Assembly (NCBI RefSeq): GCF_000325665.1
Contig: NC_019908.1
Coordinates: 1,550,001-1,614,000, forward strand
Source: Brachyspira pilosicoli P43/6/78
Lineage (GTDB): Bacteria > Spirochaetota > Brachyspiria > Brachyspirales > Brachyspiraceae
Length of the DNA stretch: 64,000 bases
Direction of reading: 5' to 3'
In this document: one piece after another, positions 5,608 through 55,230 of the stretch
Layout of the letters: each line of letters starts with the position of its first letter
How positions within the stretch are numbered: the first letter of the stretch is position 1
The notes under the pieces: model-generated
The model's database searches: none
What the model was told of the DNA's origin: nothing
The model's input: the letters and a program-made list of their open reading frames with translations, nothing else
Made by a program: the position numbers and the translations under genes

Positions 5608-5737
5608 ACCCTAGTATAGTATATAAAAAAATTCATTTTTTTTATTTTATTGGGAACTTTTATTTATTTTCTACGTCTAATAAAGCATAAGAAAACAAAA
5701 AATAATAAAATAAATATAAAAGTAAGGGAGATTAAAA

Positions 5738-5983
5738 ATGAAAAAAGGATTTATAATTTTGGTTTCTATAGCAATTATGGTATTTGGTTCTGTATCTTTA
5801 TTTGGATACGGCAGAGGCTATGGAATGGGTTATGGTAGAGGATATGGCAGAGGTTATGGTATGGGTTGTAATTATGGATACAATGCTAGATACAATAATC
5901 AAAGATATGAAGGCAGATATTATAACCAAAGATTTAATGGATACAACGGATGTTATTATTACAATAATACATACGTAAAATAA
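5738..5983 (+). CDS. Secreted Gly/Tyr/Arg-rich repeat protein, copy 1
   Basis: An 81-residue protein of unknown function. Residues 1-23 form a signal peptide (MKKGF, then hydrophobic IILVSIAIMVFGSVSLFG). It is followed by GYGRGYGMG-type repeats and a Tyr/Asn/Arg-rich tail with two Cys. AGGGAG precedes ATG 5738. The next gene is a near-identical tandem duplicate, and a third relative follows, all with similar upstream sequences. Gly-Tyr repeats could form a surface or periplasmic matrix or bind metal; nothing in the sequence decides this. Confidence 0.75.
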   Translation: MKKGFIILVSIAIMVFGSVSLFGYGRGYGMGYGRGYGRGYGMGCNYGYNARYNNQRYEGRYYNQRFNGYNGCYYYNNTYVK

Positions 5984-6029
5984 TAAAAAATAAAATAAAT
6001 AAAAAACACACAACTAAGGAGAATTAAAA

Positions 6030-6278
6030 ATGAAAAAAGGATTTATAATTTTGGTTTCTATAGCAATTATGGTATTTGGTTCTGTATCTCTATTTGGACA
6101 ATATGGCAGAGGCTATGGAATGGGTTATGGTAGAGGATACGGCAGAGGTTATGGCATGGGTTGTAATTATGGATACAATGCTAGATACAATAATCAAGGA
6201 TATGAAGGCAGATATTATAACCAAAGATTTAACGGATACAATGGATGTTATTATTATAACAACCCATATGTTAAATAA
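6030..6278 (+). CDS. Secreted Gly/Tyr/Arg-rich repeat protein, copy 2
   Basis: The 82-residue product differs from the preceding gene mainly by one inserted Gln after the signal peptide (LFGQYGRGYG) and a few substitutions, so it is a recent tandem duplication. The 46 bp gap carries a strong AAGGAG site before ATG 6030. The near-identity at DNA level, including the leader, makes the pair a potential substrate for recombination. Function is unknown. Confidence 0.75.
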   Translation: MKKGFIILVSIAIMVFGSVSLFGQYGRGYGMGYGRGYGRGYGMGCNYGYNARYNNQGYEGRYYNQRFNGYNGCYYYNNPYVK

Positions 6279-6331
6279 TAAAACAAATAAAAAAAATTAA
6301 ATAAAAAACACACAACTAAAGGAGAATTAAA

Positions 6332-6814
6332 ATGAAAAACATTAACAAAAAAGTATTAATATTAGTTTCTATAGCAATTATGGTATTTGGTTCTGTATCT
6401 CTATTTGGACAATATGGCAGAGGTTATGGTGCAGGATATGGTAGAGGATACGGCAGAGGTTACGGTATGGGTTGCGGCAGAGGATATGGCAGAGGTTACG
6501 GAATGGGTTGTAACTATGGATATGGCAGAGGTTATGGTGCAGGATATGGCAGAGGTTACGGATATTACAACCTTACTCAAGACCAAATTAATCAAATACA
6601 ATCTATAGAAAGTAAATATTTCCCTCAAATAGATGATTTGAGAAGAGAAGTATATAACAAAAACCAAGTTATAAATTTAGAAATGAGCAAACAAAACCCT
6701 GACCAAAATGCTATAAATAAAGCTATAGATGATAGAGCTAAAACTTTATCTGATTTAGACAAATTAAGAACAGAGTTTTTCTTAGAAATGGATAAAGTGT
6801 TTCAAGTAAAATAA
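6332..6814 (+). CDS. Secreted GYGRGYG-repeat protein with a Spy/LTXXQ-like helical domain
   Basis: This 160-residue protein shares the signal peptide core and GRGYG repeats (about residues 28-80) with the two upstream paralogues. It then carries an 80-residue charged helical domain starting YNLTQDQINQIQSIESKYFP. That segment matches the LTXXQ pattern of the Spy/CpxP/ZraP periplasmic group, known for chaperone activity and zinc binding in other bacteria. I infer a periplasmic stress or metal-related role; the repeat half is unexplained. AAAGGAG precedes ATG 6332 and a terminator follows at 6837. Confidence 0.75.
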   Translation: MKNINKKVLILVSIAIMVFGSVSLFGQYGRGYGAGYGRGYGRGYGMGCGRGYGRGYGMGCNYGYGRGYGAGYGRGYGYYNLTQDQINQIQSIESKYFPQIDDLRREVYNKNQVINLEMSKQNPDQNAINKAIDDRAKTLSDLDKLRTEFFLEMDKVFQVK

Positions 6815-31351: not shown

Positions 31352-33541
31352 ATGAAAAACAAATTATATAAATACATTATTATAACAATAATTATATCAA
31401 TATTAATACTAATACCTCTATCAATTATGGGGAATTTCAAAAGAACTGCATATATCTCAGACTTTAAAAATATTGTAGAAAATAAATACTCTTTTACATT
31501 TAAATATAAATCAAAAATTTTTAAAAATAATAAAATATATGAAATACAGCCAAACACAAACCAAACAATAAAAGATGTAATCTCTATTAAATTTAAAAAT
31601 GGAAGCTCATTCGGCACATTAATTACAGATAAGAAACTAAATACAAACGACAAAATAGAGAATATAGAATACAAATTAAAATTAAAAAAAGAAGTATTTA
31701 TATTTTTTATTTTAATAATACTAATATTTCCAATACTGTATTTATATATAATACCAAACATAATAAAAAACTATAAAACATATATACTTTTTCTAATAAT
31801 ACATACTCTGCTCTACTTCTCAATAACTAAATTAATTCTCCCATCATTTTCAATGTTAAAATTACAAACAAATGTTTATGATATACTGTACTCATATTTG
31901 TTTGTAATAATTTCATATAATTTACTAAGCTATATACCAAATTTTATACATTTAAAAAATCATAGAATAATTTTTACGATACTATTTTGTGTTATAACAA
32001 ATTTTTCTTTTTTTGTGATAGAGACTATAGCATTGAGCGTGTTAGATATGGTAATACTTTTTTCTGATATGCCAAATCTATATTCTTCACTTATAACAGT
32101 GCTTCCTCTATATATGAAGATTATAACAATACTATCCACTATAATATATTTCTCTTCAATATTATTTTTATTATCACTATTTATATACAACTTATATAGA
32201 ATGTTTAAAACGAAAAAATCAAATGCAATAATTATGATATTATCAATCATAGCTATATCATATGTTTTATTTTTAAGACCAAGCAAAGTTGACATATGGA
32301 GCATAGATTTTTTAAGAAATGCCAACAAAAGAGGAATAATATATACACTCAATTATAGAATAAATTATGACAGAATAAACAATATAAAGCCAAGCAAAGA
32401 AGCAGTATTAAACTCTATAAACTTATTGAAATCCTATGAAGAAAAAAGAGACATATCAAATTTATTATTACAAGAAAGTGAAAACAAAAGAGACATATTT
32501 TTAATATTTTTAGAGTCCTTTTATGATTATTCCCATTTTGTAAAACTATTTAATAAAGACCCATTCCCAAAAGAATATAGAAAATGGGCAAATGCCTCTC
32601 AAAAAATATCTCCAAATGTTAATAATGGAAGTTTTTATGCAAGACTGGCAGGACTTACTGCTTCAAGCCCACTATATCCAAAAACTCAATCAGAAAAAAT
32701 AAATAACACTTTAATAAGCCTTTTAAATGAAGAAGGATACTACACTTTGGCATTAGAAGAAGCATTAAACACATACAACCTTAAGACATTCTACCCTTCA
32801 ATAGGTTTTAGTAATTCAATATTCGGTTTAAACATCACAAATATAAACACATACCTAAAAACTAATATAAACAATCTTAAAAAACCTCTATTCGTATCTG
32901 GCTTTACAATTTTAGGACACACAGATTCTCATATAGAAAATGATTTTAATATAGCAGAAAAAAATAAAAAGTTTATGAATTATTTTAATGGCAATGATAA
33001 ACTCAATCTCATAGAAACTATGGACAATTCCGTAATGGCAGCAATTGAAATAATAAAAATTAGAGACACAATACTAAAATATTCACCAAATGCATTAATA
33101 ATATTCAAACATGACCATTTGTATCCATATTTAAGAGCAATAGTAGAGCGTTCAACTATAGATGAAAACATAAAGAAAAGCTTTTTAGAAGATAGTAGTC
33201 CAAGTCCGCTTCTTATATGGGACGGCACTAACGGAGCATACAAAGCACCAGTAAATATTGTTCCAGAAAATATACCAATGTTTATAGCTATTAATGCTGG
33301 AGCAACAAATTATAAAAACTCTATTATTTCACTGCTTTACAAAGAAAATATTGATAACACTATAAGCACATATCATAAATATTATAAAATTACTAATAAC
33401 TCATTGATAATAGAAAATAATATTGATGAAAACTCTGAAATTTTTAAATACGAAAATGCCCAAAAAATATTGTCGCAAGATATATTTCAAGGTAAAAAAT
33501 ATTATTATGAGTTAATAGACAATTTAGAAAAAACTAATTAA
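31352..33541 (+). CDS. LtaS/OpgB-like membrane sulfatase-fold protein with shared N-terminal module
   Basis: The 729-residue protein has an N-terminal span, an extracytoplasmic segment (about 35-110, TAYISDF to EYKLKLK), about five further spans to residue 305, and a large outer domain. That domain resembles lipoteichoic-acid-synthase-type phosphotransferases: IFLIFLESFYDYS for the first metal strand, NVNNGSFYARLAGLTA where the Thr nucleophile is expected (here Ser), and IIFKHDHLYP for the terminal metal ligands. It may transfer phosphoglycerol or phosphoethanolamine to a surface glycan. The N-terminal module recurs in the proteins at 45526-47585 and 52324-55012. The 3' end overlaps convergent thiD by 4 bp. 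Confidence 0.72.
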   Translation: MKNKLYKYIIITIIISILILIPLSIMGNFKRTAYISDFKNIVENKYSFTFKYKSKIFKNNKIYEIQPNTNQTIKDVISIKFKNGSSFGTLITDKKLNTNDKIENIEYKLKLKKEVFIFFILIILIFPILYLYIIPNIIKNYKTYILFLIIHTLLYFSITKLILPSFSMLKLQTNVYDILYSYLFVIISYNLLSYIPNFIHLKNHRIIFTILFCVITNFSFFVIETIALSVLDMVILFSDMPNLYSSLITVLPLYMKIITILSTIIYFSSILFLLSLFIYNLYRMFKTKKSNAIIMILSIIAISYVLFLRPSKVDIWSIDFLRNANKRGIIYTLNYRINYDRINNIKPSKEAVLNSINLLKSYEEKRDISNLLLQESENKRDIFLIFLESFYDYSHFVKLFNKDPFPKEYRKWANASQKISPNVNNGSFYARLAGLTASSPLYPKTQSEKINNTLISLLNEEGYYTLALEEALNTYNLKTFYPSIGFSNSIFGLNITNINTYLKTNINNLKKPLFVSGFTILGHTDSHIENDFNIAEKNKKFMNYFNGNDKLNLIETMDNSVMAAIEIIKIRDTILKYSPNALIIFKHDHLYPYLRAIVERSTIDENIKKSFLEDSSPSPLLIWDGTNGAYKAPVNIVPENIPMFIAINAGATNYKNSIISLLYKENIDNTISTYHKYYKITNNSLIIENNIDENSEIFKYENAQKILSQDIFQGKKYYYELIDNLEKTN

Positions 33542-45525: not shown

Positions 45526-47585
45526 TTAAATAAAATATTTTTTTATTAAACCTATATCATATATATATGATATAAAAGATACTAATAAACTAAAATTCAT
45601 TACTACTATTGGAAATAAAAACCTACTATCATTTAAAGAAGTAAATATTATTACTATAATAATTGTAGCAAAACTAGAAAATGATACAAAAAAAGAATAC
45701 ATTAATAATTTATTAAAACTTCTTAATTTTATAATTAAAAATAATGATGTAAAAAATATTAATATACTAATAAATATATTAAATAAATTATATAGCCTTA
45801 TAGAAAAAGTGTGTAAAAAATTATATATTGATATTTTTACACTATTGGGTTCTATATTATAATTTTTGAAATTAAGTTCCTCTAAATTTTTTGGTATATA
45901 ATATGTATGATAAGATCCAATTATCCATACATTTTTAGATAGTATTACAGAATTAGCAAATTTTAATATATGACTAATATAGCTTTTTGGATATTTTAAT
46001 ATATATTTAATCCAAACTTTATTTATATTCTCCAAATATCCAGGCTTAAATATTCTCTGCGGGAAATGTGAAAATACAAATACATCTCCAAATAATGAAG
46101 TAGAATTATACAATTTTTTTAAATCTTCAAAATCTTTTCCTTTTTCATACCAATCACTAGGAATTAGAGAATCATCATTATTAGCAGCAGCACAGGCAGC
46201 TATTTGCATAGCAAATATATTATTTGGAGCATTTCTTGCAAATCTATCATTAATATCCATCCAAATTTCATAATCTATAACATATCCATATTTAGAATAT
46301 AAATCATCATAATTAATATCTTTATAATAATATCCATCATTTGACTTTATCCATATATAAGGATTGATTTTTACTATAAACACCATTAGTATTGCTGCTA
46401 TAAATGAAATTGATATAAAAAGAAAAACATTTTTCAATTTAGATTTCAAATTAAATTTGCATACTAATAAAAATATTAGAAATAATATTATTGGATATAT
46501 TGTTACTATTGCATTATGTCGCCATAATAGTGCTAATAATAATGACACCAAAATGATAAGTCTAATAATTATATTTAATATTATATTTTTTATTGGCACT
46601 AATATCATAAAAAATATTAATGATATAGATAGCCATATAAACATAGAACATGTTATATCTTTTAATTGTGTCAATGTAGTAAAAAACATATCTGATATAA
46701 ATGCTATACAAAATAATAACAAAACTTGCGGATTTTTATACTTTAAATAAAGTGCAATTATTATTAATGAAAGTCCGCTATAAAGACAAATTAAATTAAT
46801 TAAAGTTAAATAAAAAGTATGCTGTCCAAATATTTTATATAAGAGGTTAAGTATTACTGCTATTATAACTGGATGCCAGTTAGAATAATCTTTCAATATT
46901 GATTGTTTTAGTATGACTATATTATCTGGATTATAGAAATAACCAGGAAATCCCAACCAGAAATGAAATAAAAATAATATAAATCCTATTAATATTATAG
47001 TAATTATAACATCTCTATCAGTATGAAATATCTTTTTAAGATTAAAAATATTTCTTATTTTAATATATATTGTTAAAAATATTATAAATATAGAATATGT
47101 TAATAACATTGGTTTTAGTTTCAGAACATATGTTATATTATAAATTTTTTCAGCATCTATAACTTTACTAGAAATTAAATTACCAAATGGACCGCCATTT
47201 TCATTCATTTCTATTTTTTTAATATAATTATTATTTTCTAAAATTTGGTTTATATTAGGATAAACACCATAAATATCACTATTTCTAAATACTTTATTAT
47301 AATATTTTATTCTAAAATTATAGCTATAATTTGTTATAGATATATTAGTAAATAAAAAATTATTAATAGAAGTTTCATCTAATTTATCTTCTATAATAAA
47401 TAATTTTTTAGTTTTCTTTCTAAATCTAATCCATTTATTTCTAATGTTTTATCAACATTTATCTCAAAATCTGATAGATATCCTATTCTTTCTTTTTTTC
47501 CTAAAACATATAAAACTATAATTGAAATAGCTAGTATAATAACAAATACTATATATATTTTTAAAAAAATATTTTTATTTTTCAT
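45526..47585 (-). pseudogene. GT-C-like polytopic membrane protein with shared N-terminal module (one-base frameshift)
   Basis: The reconstructed protein has about 686 residues. An N-terminal span is followed by an extracytoplasmic module (ERIGYLSDFEINVDKTLEIN to YVLKLK, about residues 30-165), a second span and about ten more. The core shows SNWHPVIIAVILNLLYKIFG, TQLKDITCSMFIWL and LLWRHNAIVTIYP, resembling membrane glycosyltransferases of the GT-C superfamily. The frame is broken near 47405-47420, where one more A in GAAAGAAAACT restores it. It starts at ATG 47585, overlapping a short upstream ORF in ATGA. It probably adds or flips a sugar on a surface polymer; the activity is inference. 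Confidence 0.72.
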
Positions 47586-47701
47586 ATTTTATCCTTGTAA
47601 AAAATACATAGTTTATTATAAATAAAATTTTTTTCAACAAAAATAGAGCATATTAGTAAAGTAAAATATGAGATTATATATAAATATTTGTTTGTTTGCA
47701 T
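47582..47701 (-). CDS. Short upstream ORF (39 aa) coupled to the GT-C-like gene
   Basis: ATG 47701 has a good ribosome binding site (GGAAG, complement of 47708-47712) and a promoter upstream. The peptide begins MQTNKYLYIISYFTLLICS, mostly one hydrophobic span. Its stop overlaps the next ATG as ATGA (47585-47582), the classical coupling arrangement. It aligns without gaps with the upstream ORF at 55002-55178, 11 of 17 residues identical over the hydrophobic part. Its first codons are AAAC repeats. It may be a real small membrane protein or a translation-control leader. Confidence 0.65.
   Translation of the reverse strand: MQTNKYLYIISYFTLLICSIFVEKNFIYNKLCIFYKDKI
47687..47698 (-). repeat. Short (AAAC)n repeat at the start of the upstream ORF
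   Basis: Three TTTG units on the plus strand directly follow the start codon of the short ORF on the minus strand. The homologous position at 55132-55175 has eleven units. Confidence 0.75.
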
Positions 47702-47725
47702 ATTATTCTTCCATTTAAATAAAAT

Positions 47726-47753
47726 ATTATATCATAATAAAGAAAATCATCAA
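47726..47753 (-). promoter_or_regulatory. Promoter of the upstream ORF and GT-C-like operon
   Basis: On the minus strand TTGATG (47748-47753) and TATAAT (47726-47731) are separated by 16 bp; the short ORF begins 24 bp downstream. Confidence 0.7.
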
Positions 47754-51540: not shown

Positions 51541-52320
51541 TTATTTCTTTACATTATAATATCCAGTTACTACTTTTATTAACTGTGACATTATTTGTAA
51601 ATTCCCCCAAAAATTTATTTTAGTTGGTATTTTACCACTTTTGGGATAAACTCTTGTTTGTGGTATCTCTATAACTTTATAACCCAATTTAGGTATTATA
51701 TTTGCTAAATACCATTGTGATTCCCAACTAGTAAATATATCCCTAAAAATAGCTATTCTATCATCATCTATTATCTTCATAGAAAAACCTCTAAAGGCTG
51801 ACATTGTTTCTGTATATTTAAATCCTGAAGATAATGATAATAGAGGATTAGAAATTAATTTAATTGCTAATACTCTTGAAAGTGGTGTGTTTTCATGATA
51901 TCCACCTTTCATAAATCTTGAACCTTGAACAAAATCATAACCTTTTTCTAATAATTCTACAAACTCCATAGTCTGCTCTACACTATCTTTATTATTACCA
52001 TCTACTGTAACTATTCCTTTATATTTCTCATCAGATACTTTTGAGAAACCTGCTTTATAAGCATTGGCTTGACCTTTCATTCTAATAGTAAGAACAGCCC
52101 TTACTCCTATATCTCTAAGAAAATCATCATTTATAGAACCATCTGTACTTCCAGCATCAAGCAAAAATATATCTATCTTTCCAGGTATATCAGAATCTTT
52201 CAAACGTTTAAGTTCTATTTGTATTCTTTCTCCCTCGTTCCAAGTAGGTATTAATAAACAATACTCATTTCTTTTACTAAAATATTCTTTATATTCATAA
52301 TTTGGTATTTCTCTTTCCAT
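51541..52320 (-). CDS. GT2-family glycosyltransferase
   Basis: The 259-residue protein resembles dolichyl-phosphate-mannose-synthase-type GT2 enzymes. It has YCLLIPTWNEGERIQIEL, FLLDAGSTDGS and IVTVDGNNKDSVEQ in the donor site, and FVQGSRFMKGG downstream. It has no C-terminal membrane anchor. The start lies 3 bp after the reconstructed membrane protein gene at 52324-55012, so they are cotranscribed. It may load a sugar on a polyprenyl carrier for that membrane protein to use, as GT2/GT-C pairs commonly do. Confidence 0.85.
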   Translation of the reverse strand: MEREIPNYEYKEYFSKRNEYCLLIPTWNEGERIQIELKRLKDSDIPGKIDIFLLDAGSTDGSINDDFLRDIGVRAVLTIRMKGQANAYKAGFSKVSDEKYKGIVTVDGNNKDSVEQTMEFVELLEKGYDFVQGSRFMKGGYHENTPLSRVLAIKLISNPLLSLSSGFKYTETMSAFRGFSMKIIDDDRIAIFRDIFTSWESQWYLANIIPKLGYKVIEIPQTRVYPKSGKIPTKINFWGNLQIMSQLIKVVTGYYNVKK

Positions 52321-52323
52321 TAG

Positions 52324-55012
52324 TTAAAGTCCTTTTGCTAATCTATCATTAATTAAAATAAAACCTCTATTCAGAAAATCTTCACCTTTTTCGAAATTAT
52401 ATGAACCATTATATGTCCAAGGTAATTCTTGAAATGTTTTCATGCTTAATTTATACACAAAATATTTTTTATTATTTATATAAAAATCATAATTTGTAAA
52501 AATTATTCTTTCATCTTCTTTTTTATATTTAATATCAGATATAAAATAAAAATCATAATCTGTTCTTACATTAATATAATTAATATCTTTAGTCATTAAA
52601 ATTAATAAACCTCCAGATATATTTTTATCTATATCAGAAATATATTCATTTGCGCCTTTAGATATTAGTGAACCATTATCTGATACTGTAACATCTGTAA
52701 ATTTAGAATATGTATTAAATAATAATAATTTAGTTTTTCTTATATCTTTTGCCCAATAAAATGAAGAGTTCCAAACATTCGTATTTATGCTTGATATACT
52801 CATGATATTTGTATATATTGTTCCCCTATCTGTATTATAAGTATGGCTCTTCCATATATCTTGATTATAATGTACATTATTATTGCTTATAGAAGTATTT
52901 GGTATATTATTTTTTATACATAAGAAAGATTCATATCCATTTTTTAACAATATAATTAATAAGAGTGATAATATAATATTATTATATCTTTTACAGGATA
53001 ATATATTTGCAAAAAATAAACAAAATAAGAAAATTTAACAAGATAAACAGATATAAAAAAATCAGTACTAATTCCTTTTCTAATAGTATTCATAAATAAT
53101 ATTGATATTATAAGTATTAATATAGAGATTATTAAACTTGACTTTATTTTTGATATACTAATTTTTTTATTTTTATATATAAATATAGTTGATACAATTA
53201 AAATAAAAATAAATAATAATATAAAAACAATCAAATATTTAAGTACATTTTTACTAGCATCACCATATCCAACAATTTCCCAATTTATAATTGATAGAAT
53301 ACTACCGCCAGCATAAGATAAAATATAAGTATTAGCTAAACTATCAAATGGATCTGGTAATAATAAAGATAATAATAAAGGAGATAACATAGCTAATATA
53401 TAAATTACAAAATATTTAATTAATAATTTGATTATACAATAAACATTAATTTTATTAAAATAAATAAGAGAAATAATTACTGTTAATATTATAAAAAATA
53501 TAGGCAATAAAGATTGTAAATATATTAATTTATTAGGATCTATATCGTATAATAAGGAGCTTGATTTAATAGATTTAGTAATAAATAGTTTATATATTAC
53601 AATATTAAAAATTATAAGCACTATAGTAAATAAAAATAATAATATAAATATATTTTATAATTTATATTATTATTTTTATTTTTATATAATTTATCTAAGT
53701 TAAGCAAAATATAAATTATAAAAATTAATACTGCCCATCCAGATAATTGTATCTTTGATAAAATAGCAAAACCAGAAAATATACCTGATATTATTATATA
53801 TAATTTATGTTTATTACTAATACAAGTTTTTGTTTCAGATGATAATATTATAAAGAATAACGATATAGAAGCAAATAGTAATCCAAAAGTTTCATATCTA
53901 ATAATATTTATAAAAGCATTAAATATATAAAATGAACTTATAGAAGATGGAAACATAAAAAATATCAGCATCAATATTGATATAATAAAATATAAAAACT
54001 TATTTTTAACAATATTATATTTATTAATTATTTTCATTCCATTAATAAACATTATTGACAAAAATAGAAGAAAAGATATATAAAATATTGTAATAGAATA
54101 TTCTGCCATTTCTGCAAATATAAAATAAGGATTTAAACTAATTTTAAAATCTTCAAAAGTAATATTTGTAAGTATGTTAAAGAACTTACCAAATGGAATG
54201 AATATTATTTTAAATAGAACCAAAGGTATCATATTAGGATGTAGAAAATGCTCTGGCATCATATTTAATGAAACTAGTAGCATATCTTTTGTATACTGAT
54301 TTGTAGAATCGGTCATATAATAATAATAATATGATAAACGTATATGATTATAGATAAAAAATATAAAAGGAAAAAATATAATAAAAACTATAATAGAAAT
54401 ATTAAAATTGTTCTCACAATCATTAATTAAAAAATTACGAATATTATTAACCAATAATAATATTTTATTTCTATAAAAATAAAATATAAAAATTACTAAT
54501 ATAGAGAACAATGTAATTAATATAGATAATATAATTTTATATTTTAATTTTAGCGTATAATTTATATTATCAATTTTTTCTGTATATATAATCTTACTAG
54601 AAATAAAATCACCAAAAGGACTACCTTTCTCACCCATTTTTATTTCTTTAATAAAATTATTATTATTTAATATATTTTCTATATTAGGATAAACATCATA
54701 TATATCGCTATTTCTAAATACTTTGCTATAATATTTTATTCTAAAGTCATAACTATAATTTGTTATAGAATCATTAGTAAAAATATAATTGGTAATAGAA
54801 TTATAGTCTAACTTATCATCTAATGTAAATAATTTTTTAGTTTCATTTATATCTAATCCATTAATATATAAAGTTTTATCTATATTTAAATTAAAATCTG
54901 ATAAAAATCCTACTCTTTCTTTTATACCTAATAATCCTAATACAGCTATTGAAATAATTATTACAAATGAAAAAACAACAAATATCTTTATCAAAATCTC
55001 TTTAGTTTTCAT
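52324..55012 (-). pseudogene. Large GT-C-like membrane protein with shared N-terminal module (two frameshifts)
   Basis: The reconstructed protein is about 895 residues. It starts with a span and the extracytoplasmic module (ERVGFLSDFNLNIDKTLYIN through SPFGDFISSKIIYTEKI, about 30-165), followed by about twelve spans, with LASISLFFII and SGFAILSKIQLSGWAVLIF resembling GT-C transferases. The C-terminal 200 residues form a soluble outer domain. Frames change near 53640 (KIYILLLFLFTIVLIIFN is the continuing span) and near 52975-53035 (T-rich, LSLLLIILLKNGYESF). The reading frame is otherwise continuous. AGAGG precedes ATG 55012, which overlaps an upstream ORF containing eleven AAAC repeats. Confidence 0.7.
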
Positions 55013-55178
55013 ATACTACCTCTTGAAAACATACAAAGTTTAGAAAAAAGATATTTAATTTTGTAGTATTTATTTTTGCAACAGAAATAGAACGTATTAG
55101 TAGAATAAAACTTGAGAGTATATAGAGAAATGTTTGTTTGTTTGTTTGTTTGTTTGTTTGTTTGTTTGTTTGTTTCAT
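55002..55178 (-). CDS. Upstream ORF (58 aa) containing (AAAC)11, overlapping the membrane protein start
   Basis: From ATG 55178 the frame runs through eleven AAAC units (KQTN repeats) into a hydrophobic segment TFLYILSSFILLIRS and ends at TAA 55004-55002, eleven bases into the next gene. By calculation, one unit fewer (n=10) makes the ORF stop early, while one more (n=12) gives a different frame ending in ATGA at the next start. Its hydrophobic part is homologous to the ORF at 47582-47701. A weak GGGT lies 9 nt before the ATG. This is a strong candidate for slipped-strand phase variation. Confidence 0.6.
   Translation of the reverse strand: MKQTNKQTNKQTNKQTFLYILSSFILLIRSISVAKINTTKLNIFFLNFVCFQEVVYEN
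55132..55175 (-). repeat. Tetranucleotide microsatellite (AAAC)11 / (GTTT)11
   Basis: Eleven uninterrupted GTTT units on the plus strand. On the minus strand they directly follow an ATG and lie in the transcribed leader of the membrane protein operon. Confidence 0.95.
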
Positions 55179-55202: not shown

Positions 55203-55230
55203 ATTATACTATACTTAATGCTATTGTCAA
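55203..55230 (-). promoter_or_regulatory. Promoter of the repeat-containing glycan operon
   Basis: On the minus strand TTGACA (55225-55230) and TATAAT (55203-55208) are both exact consensus with a 16 bp spacer. Predicted start is near 55196, about 18 nt before the ATG of the repeat ORF. Confidence 0.85.

Follow-up and report, generated by a model that had tools for sequence, protein, structure and literature searches.

Among the closest described systems to the element reported here are the SSR-switched LOS glycosyltransferase genes lic1A, lic2A, lex2A, and lgtC of Haemophilus influenzae (PMC2651432; PMC6479036). The Brachyspira leader resembles these genes in that a translated frame has non-triplet tandem repeats at its 5' end, that the targets are glycan genes, and that the number of repeats sets the frame. 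The tetranucleotide tracts of H. influenzae, however, are described within the glycosyltransferase genes themselves, while the Brachyspira repeats are mostly found in a separate, overlapping upstream ORF (uORF); furthermore, and again unlike the H. influenzae LOS genes, one and the same leader occurs in Brachyspira before unrelated genes. Of small ORFs that bear repeats ahead of an enzyme, we take lex2A/lex2B as the closest to the arrangement in Brachyspira.

Tandem arrays with 7-nt units are present about 100 nt upstream of the surface-protein genes hmw1A and hmw2A of H. influenzae (PMC2651432); these are reported to act within the promoter, whereas in Brachyspira the arrays follow the promoter and apparently exert their effect through the frame. 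With ATGA coupling in bacterial operons, the Brachyspira leader shares the stop/start overlap and the placement of a ribosome-binding site within the upstream ORF, but its uORF is apparently devoid of a product function and would have a hypermutable frame. Attenuators of the trpL and erm type likewise possess a short translated ORF just upstream of a gene; in contrast to these, the Brachyspira leader has no conserved peptide, no conserved RNA hairpins and no Rfam match. The lipooligosaccharide of Brachyspira has been discussed as a possible virulence feature (PMC2897892). A search of open-access papers turned up no account of either phase variation or slipped-strand repeats in the genus.

Upstream ORFs of two paralogous genes

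The window, i.e., the whole stretch of DNA that was analysed, comprises 64,000 nucleotides (positions 1,550,001 to 1,614,000 of contig NC_019908.1, forward strand) of Brachyspira pilosicoli P43/6/78, whose genome is a single contig of 2,555,556 bases. The first-pass annotation had drawn attention to a 39-codon ORF (copy B; 47701-47582, minus strand; MQTNKYLYIISYFTLLICSIFVEKNFIYNKLCIFYKDKI) that begins with AAAC units, follows a GGAAG motif and ends in an ATGA overlap with a downstream gene, and all of these elements are present. The uORF start reads ATG C AAAC AAAC AAA; its remnant repeat (AAAC AAAC AAA, 2.75 units; 47687..47697, minus strand) is found directly 3' of the start codon, the same position that long AAAC arrays occupy in relatives. 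The GGAAG ribosome-binding-like site is positioned at 47708..47712 (minus strand), the stop codon overlaps the gene start (47585) as ATGA, and a ribosome-binding-like site of gene B itself (AAGGA; 47592..47596, minus strand) is embedded in the uORF. A promoter had been proposed as well: a promoter-like TTGATG-16-TATAAT sequence with 10/12 matches is indeed located at 47726..47753 (minus strand), but it does not by itself rise above what chance alone provides in AT-rich DNA; comparable TATAAT sites precede many family leaders. Gene B is broken by a frameshift near 47406-47418, which leaves a 64-codon N-terminal piece (47391..47585, minus strand) and, in another frame, the remainder of a multi-TM membrane protein (45526..47418, minus strand) whose closest relative is found in genome G016.

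The sister copy in the window (copy A; 55002..55178, minus strand) is a uORF of 58 codons whose present frame ends 11 nt into its gene (ATGAAAACTAA); of its alternative frames, one would end at ATGA and the third at -84. Copy A contains 11.25 AAAC units (55131..55175, minus strand), the only AAAC array of at least 5 units in the window genome, and is preceded by a promoter-like TTGACA-16-TATAAT sequence (55203..55230, minus strand). Gene A (52324..55012, minus strand), which consists of an N-terminal module and a multi-TM region, is made up of three ORF pieces (55012-53621, 53621-52956, and 52950-52324). Its apparent frameshifts are located near T/A runs and may reflect decay or a second level of variation, or may be sequencing errors. 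A glycosyl transferase family 2 gene (PF00535) follows immediately after gene A, at positions 51541-52320 (minus strand).

Genes A and B share only about 180 N-terminal residues. The reported agreement of the two uORF peptides at 11 of 17 ungapped residues was reproduced. It had been argued from conservation of frame, start-proximal repeats and overlap at the two loci that either the small peptide itself or the act of translating it is of importance; while the peptides do correspond, their endings do not, since copy B ends at +4 (ATGA) and copy A at +11, and the frames relative to the genes thus differ. Two further copies of the window genome, C (1776708) and D (1442790), have no open leader; they have lost it altogether.

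By itself, the openness of the copy B frame is unremarkable (7% of dinucleotide shuffles are equally open). In conjunction with the frameshift in gene B, this would agree with a chance ORF in AT-rich DNA beside a dead gene, an explanation that we find scarcely credible in view of the leader DNA homology, the start, the repeat remnant and the overlap that are common to many intact copies; copy B may be dead and yet be the relic of a real element. Because it retains only 2.75 units, and would hence be locked, and because its gene is frameshifted, copy B is best read as a worn-down, decaying member of what appears to be a genus-wide Brachyspira switch; with 2.75 units, it could hardly be expected to switch at speed. 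The first-pass annotation therefore led to a real element via one of its least active copies. Comparison of the leaders marks the start-proximal AAAC units, which the first-pass annotation recorded without interpreting them, as the key feature: in relatives they form long arrays that would set the frame, and in copy B these appear to have been worn down.

The downstream gene family

A search for the shared 180-residue N-terminal module found it in each of 26 Brachyspira genomes (26/26), with 1 to 21 matches per genome; among 149 genomes sampled from the phylum, it occurs outside Brachyspira in one sister-genus genome only. In the predicted structure of the module, an alpha/beta domain lies between two helices; C-terminal to the module comes a multi-helix membrane region that is very divergent and whose structural model is poor (pLDDT 55). 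Searches of Pfam, NCBIfam and, by sequence, the PDB, as well as a fold search, recovered no relative of the main downstream family, and the label "GT-C-like" that the family had been given is hence a putative one. A second family sharing the leader matches PMT_2 below the cut-off. A distant further copy of the module is present in the window inside a 753-aa open frame (31445-31750, plus strand).

Tandem arrays in the leaders

Among 76 upstream regions of family members taken from Brachyspira genomes, 42 contain tandem arrays, mostly 40-180 nt before the gene. Their units include AAAC (up to 39 units), AAGCAAC, CACTA, TACAA, CACTT, CAACA, ACAGC, AATC, AAGAC, AAAAC, and GTCTACA. Unit length was 4, 5 or 7 nt in all 42 arrays and never a multiple of 3. 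The same three unit lengths account for every array of 20 nt or more (58 distinct ones) in 539 kb of sequence, most of which had been chosen around leaders. In 40 of the 42 leaders, the array is preceded by an ATG at a distance of no more than 26 nt, and a TATAAT-like site is found upstream of it in 31 of 38 (22.8 in shuffles). A non-triplet array in a translated 5' region, the arrangement looked for in SSR-based phase variation, is thus found in the family leaders. One leader (L054 in genome G006) is cut down to the promoter, the ATG, 16 AAAC units and the ribosome-binding site; its middle part of about 90 nt is missing, and no frame closes before the gene start.

The 13 distinct units are stop-free in every frame of the sense strand, while five of them contain a stop on the opposite strand. 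This test is weak when taken alone, as judged by permutation of the letters within units (P = 0.1); against random AT-rich units, values of 1e-4 to 1e-2 were obtained. Genome-wide repeat counts were made by pattern searches for AAAC only. AAAC arrays of at least 5 units proved rare, with about 26 in 26 genomes (two boundary patterns), and about half of these precede family members recovered by the N-terminal search.

Openness of the leader frames

For 35 leaders, frames were counted from the ATG of the gene, and openness was scored from the array to the gene. The frame ending in ATGA, which is that of copy B, was open in 27/35 leaders against 4.9 expected (P about 5e-20), and the frame ending at about +11 in 16/35 against 3.6. 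An upstream frame that ends at or just past the downstream start, as translational coupling requires, is hence found in most of these 35 leaders. The gene's own frame was open in none of the 35 uORF leaders, so that the in-gene repeat of the lic/lgtC type does not occur among them. Because the leaders are related, each similarity cluster was also represented by a single leader; in this count, the ATGA frame was open in 8.8 of 12 against 2.3 (median P 4e-6). When the observed substitutions were permuted to random sites in each leader, 17/19 open ATGA frames stood against 9.9 (P about 9e-5; 6e-4 after removal of L172, a misaligned row, and L114).

The peptide fared differently. Mismatches between disjoint pairs of related leaders were distributed 35/39/23 over codon positions 1/2/3 of the ATGA frame, and this substitution pattern, which has no third-position excess and reveals no coding constraint, contradicts a conserved peptide. 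The two readable frames of the same leader DNA encode quite different peptides and copies use either of them; across leaders, the present repeat numbers place the uORF in all three frames. Of the alternatives offered by the first-pass annotation, translation is thus supported, with an open frame into the start codon kept genus-wide far above chance, while the peptide is not. A small leader peptide with a function of its own, e.g., as a small membrane peptide, could be seen in the 11/17 match and the hydrophobic character of the two copies, but we judge it extremely improbable: it is contradicted by the substitution pattern and by the reading of the same DNA in different frames, it is absent from copies C and D, and no convincing family match was found for it. 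Both observations that the first-pass annotation had named as refuting, copies with no open frame and substitutions free of coding constraint, have thus been made with regard to a conserved peptide. Since there is no protein-like substitution pattern and no conserved RNA structure was found (see below), selection appears to keep the reading frame of the leader open without keeping the peptide.

The arrays might instead tune properties of the mRNA or the promoter, such as length or RNA binding, with the open frames as by-products. They do sit in the transcribed leader, and CA-rich unstructured repeats could serve as landing sites for ribosomes or proteins. We nevertheless regard such tuning as very improbable, given that triplet and hexamer units are missing and that the frames past the array are kept open, neither of which would be expected if length alone counted, and given that the array is positioned downstream of both the -10 site and the ATG.

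RNA structure and the proposed switch

The accessibility of the gene ribosome-binding site (0.34) was close to that in shuffled sequences (0.32), RNAalifold yielded no consensus base pairs in the leaders, and the leaders have no Rfam match; neither accessibility nor consensus structure pointed to a downstream ribosome-binding site hidden by structure. A complementarity between TTTTACTC and GGAGTAA that had been spotted by hand in some leaders did not hold up. Translational coupling does not always need a hidden ribosome-binding site.

The leader is probably a switch for phase variation by strand slippage, exerted via translation of a uORF that is coupled to the gene. The promoter would give rise to an mRNA in which the first ATG is the start of a short ORF with the non-triplet tandem array at its beginning, and gain or loss of a unit would shift the reading frame of everything past the array. 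In the main frame, and often in two of the three frames, the ribosome would reach the gene start and stop in ATGA or 7-10 nt beyond, and translational coupling would then deliver these run-through ribosomes to the gene (ON). An early stop in the remaining frame, typically about 40-100 nt upstream, would leave the gene OFF or expressed at a low level. The peptide would be irrelevant; frame and stop position would be decisive. Most likely, the switch would decide whether a cell-surface sugar enzyme is made. Support for this model at the level of the sequence comes from the arrays, the stop-free units, the open frames, the lack of peptide constraint, the length differences and the sharing of the leader among glycan genes; that slippage proceeds in real time and that run-through corresponds to ON rather than OFF are steps that we infer. 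Against a switch stand the open frame of copy B, which alone is not beyond chance, the lack of an open leader in copies C and D, and the observation that three yajC-adjacent orthologs share one frame despite their differing array lengths, for which the chance is 1 in 9.

The sign of the switch could also be the opposite one: a uORF extending over the gene start would block initiation, so that run-through would mean OFF and an early stop ON. The genes retain their own ribosome-binding sites, and frames that terminate beyond the start (+8/+11) are open in excess of chance. Because no structure was found that hides the ribosome-binding site of the gene and that coupling would have to open, the opposite sign keeps some probability, although we consider it unlikely; these same two features, the retained sites and the missing structure, also weaken the need for coupling. 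Coupling with run-through as the ON state is preferred because, of all endings, the exact ATGA overlap, the classic geometry for coupling, is kept best and because those sister copies whose repeat is inside the gene must be ON when read through. The latter copies, in which the array belongs to the gene's own frame, at its 5' end, are L109, L119, L121, and L053 from the family and L159 from the PMT_2-like group, and they favor an activating role of translation through the repeat.

A more far-reaching joint claim, against which we lean slightly, is that the shared portable leader affords genus-wide phase variation in which the uORF frame would act as a three-way selector (ending in ATGA, ending just beyond the start, or stopping early) for graded expression of surface-glycan enzymes, not as a simple on/off device.

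Variation and spread of the leader

Array length differs at the same locus between close relatives, as looked for in SSR-based phase variation. The array of the yajC-adjacent leader has 11.25 units in the window genome; the corresponding numbers are 4.25 for B. pilosicoli T010 and 34.25 for genome G016, and promoter and leader have an upstream identity of 0.87-0.93 among these three relatives. The same leader is also found before genes for a PMT_2-like membrane protein (L158, L168, and L172), before a GT2 gene (L166) and before genes for diverged module proteins (L162 and L043). A truncated leader remnant together with a truncated module start precedes a sugar-nucleotide epimerase gene (L161 and L173; Pfam Epimerase and GDP_Man_Dehyd in L173), an arrangement that looks as if a family member had been deleted.

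If the proposed switch is real, surface-sugar genes switched by repeats would account for diversity of the cell surface within one strain, with a bearing on vaccine and typing work, and the loci collected here form a list open to direct testing. Elements in which a frame is kept without a peptide would be missed by standard gene finding and by conservation filters.

Two other repeat regions were noted. In genome G004, the sequence (AACTCAG)x8.7 (L200:3059-3172) lies inside another ORF near yajC, at its 5' end. The frame of this ORF closes after 38 codons at the present repeat length; the ORF is a candidate for a separate phase-variable gene. In the window, a tandem duplication of about 295 bp (5687-6474; 2.6 copies, TRF score 1141) takes in a start region that is itself repeated and has GGTTATGGT-type repeats.
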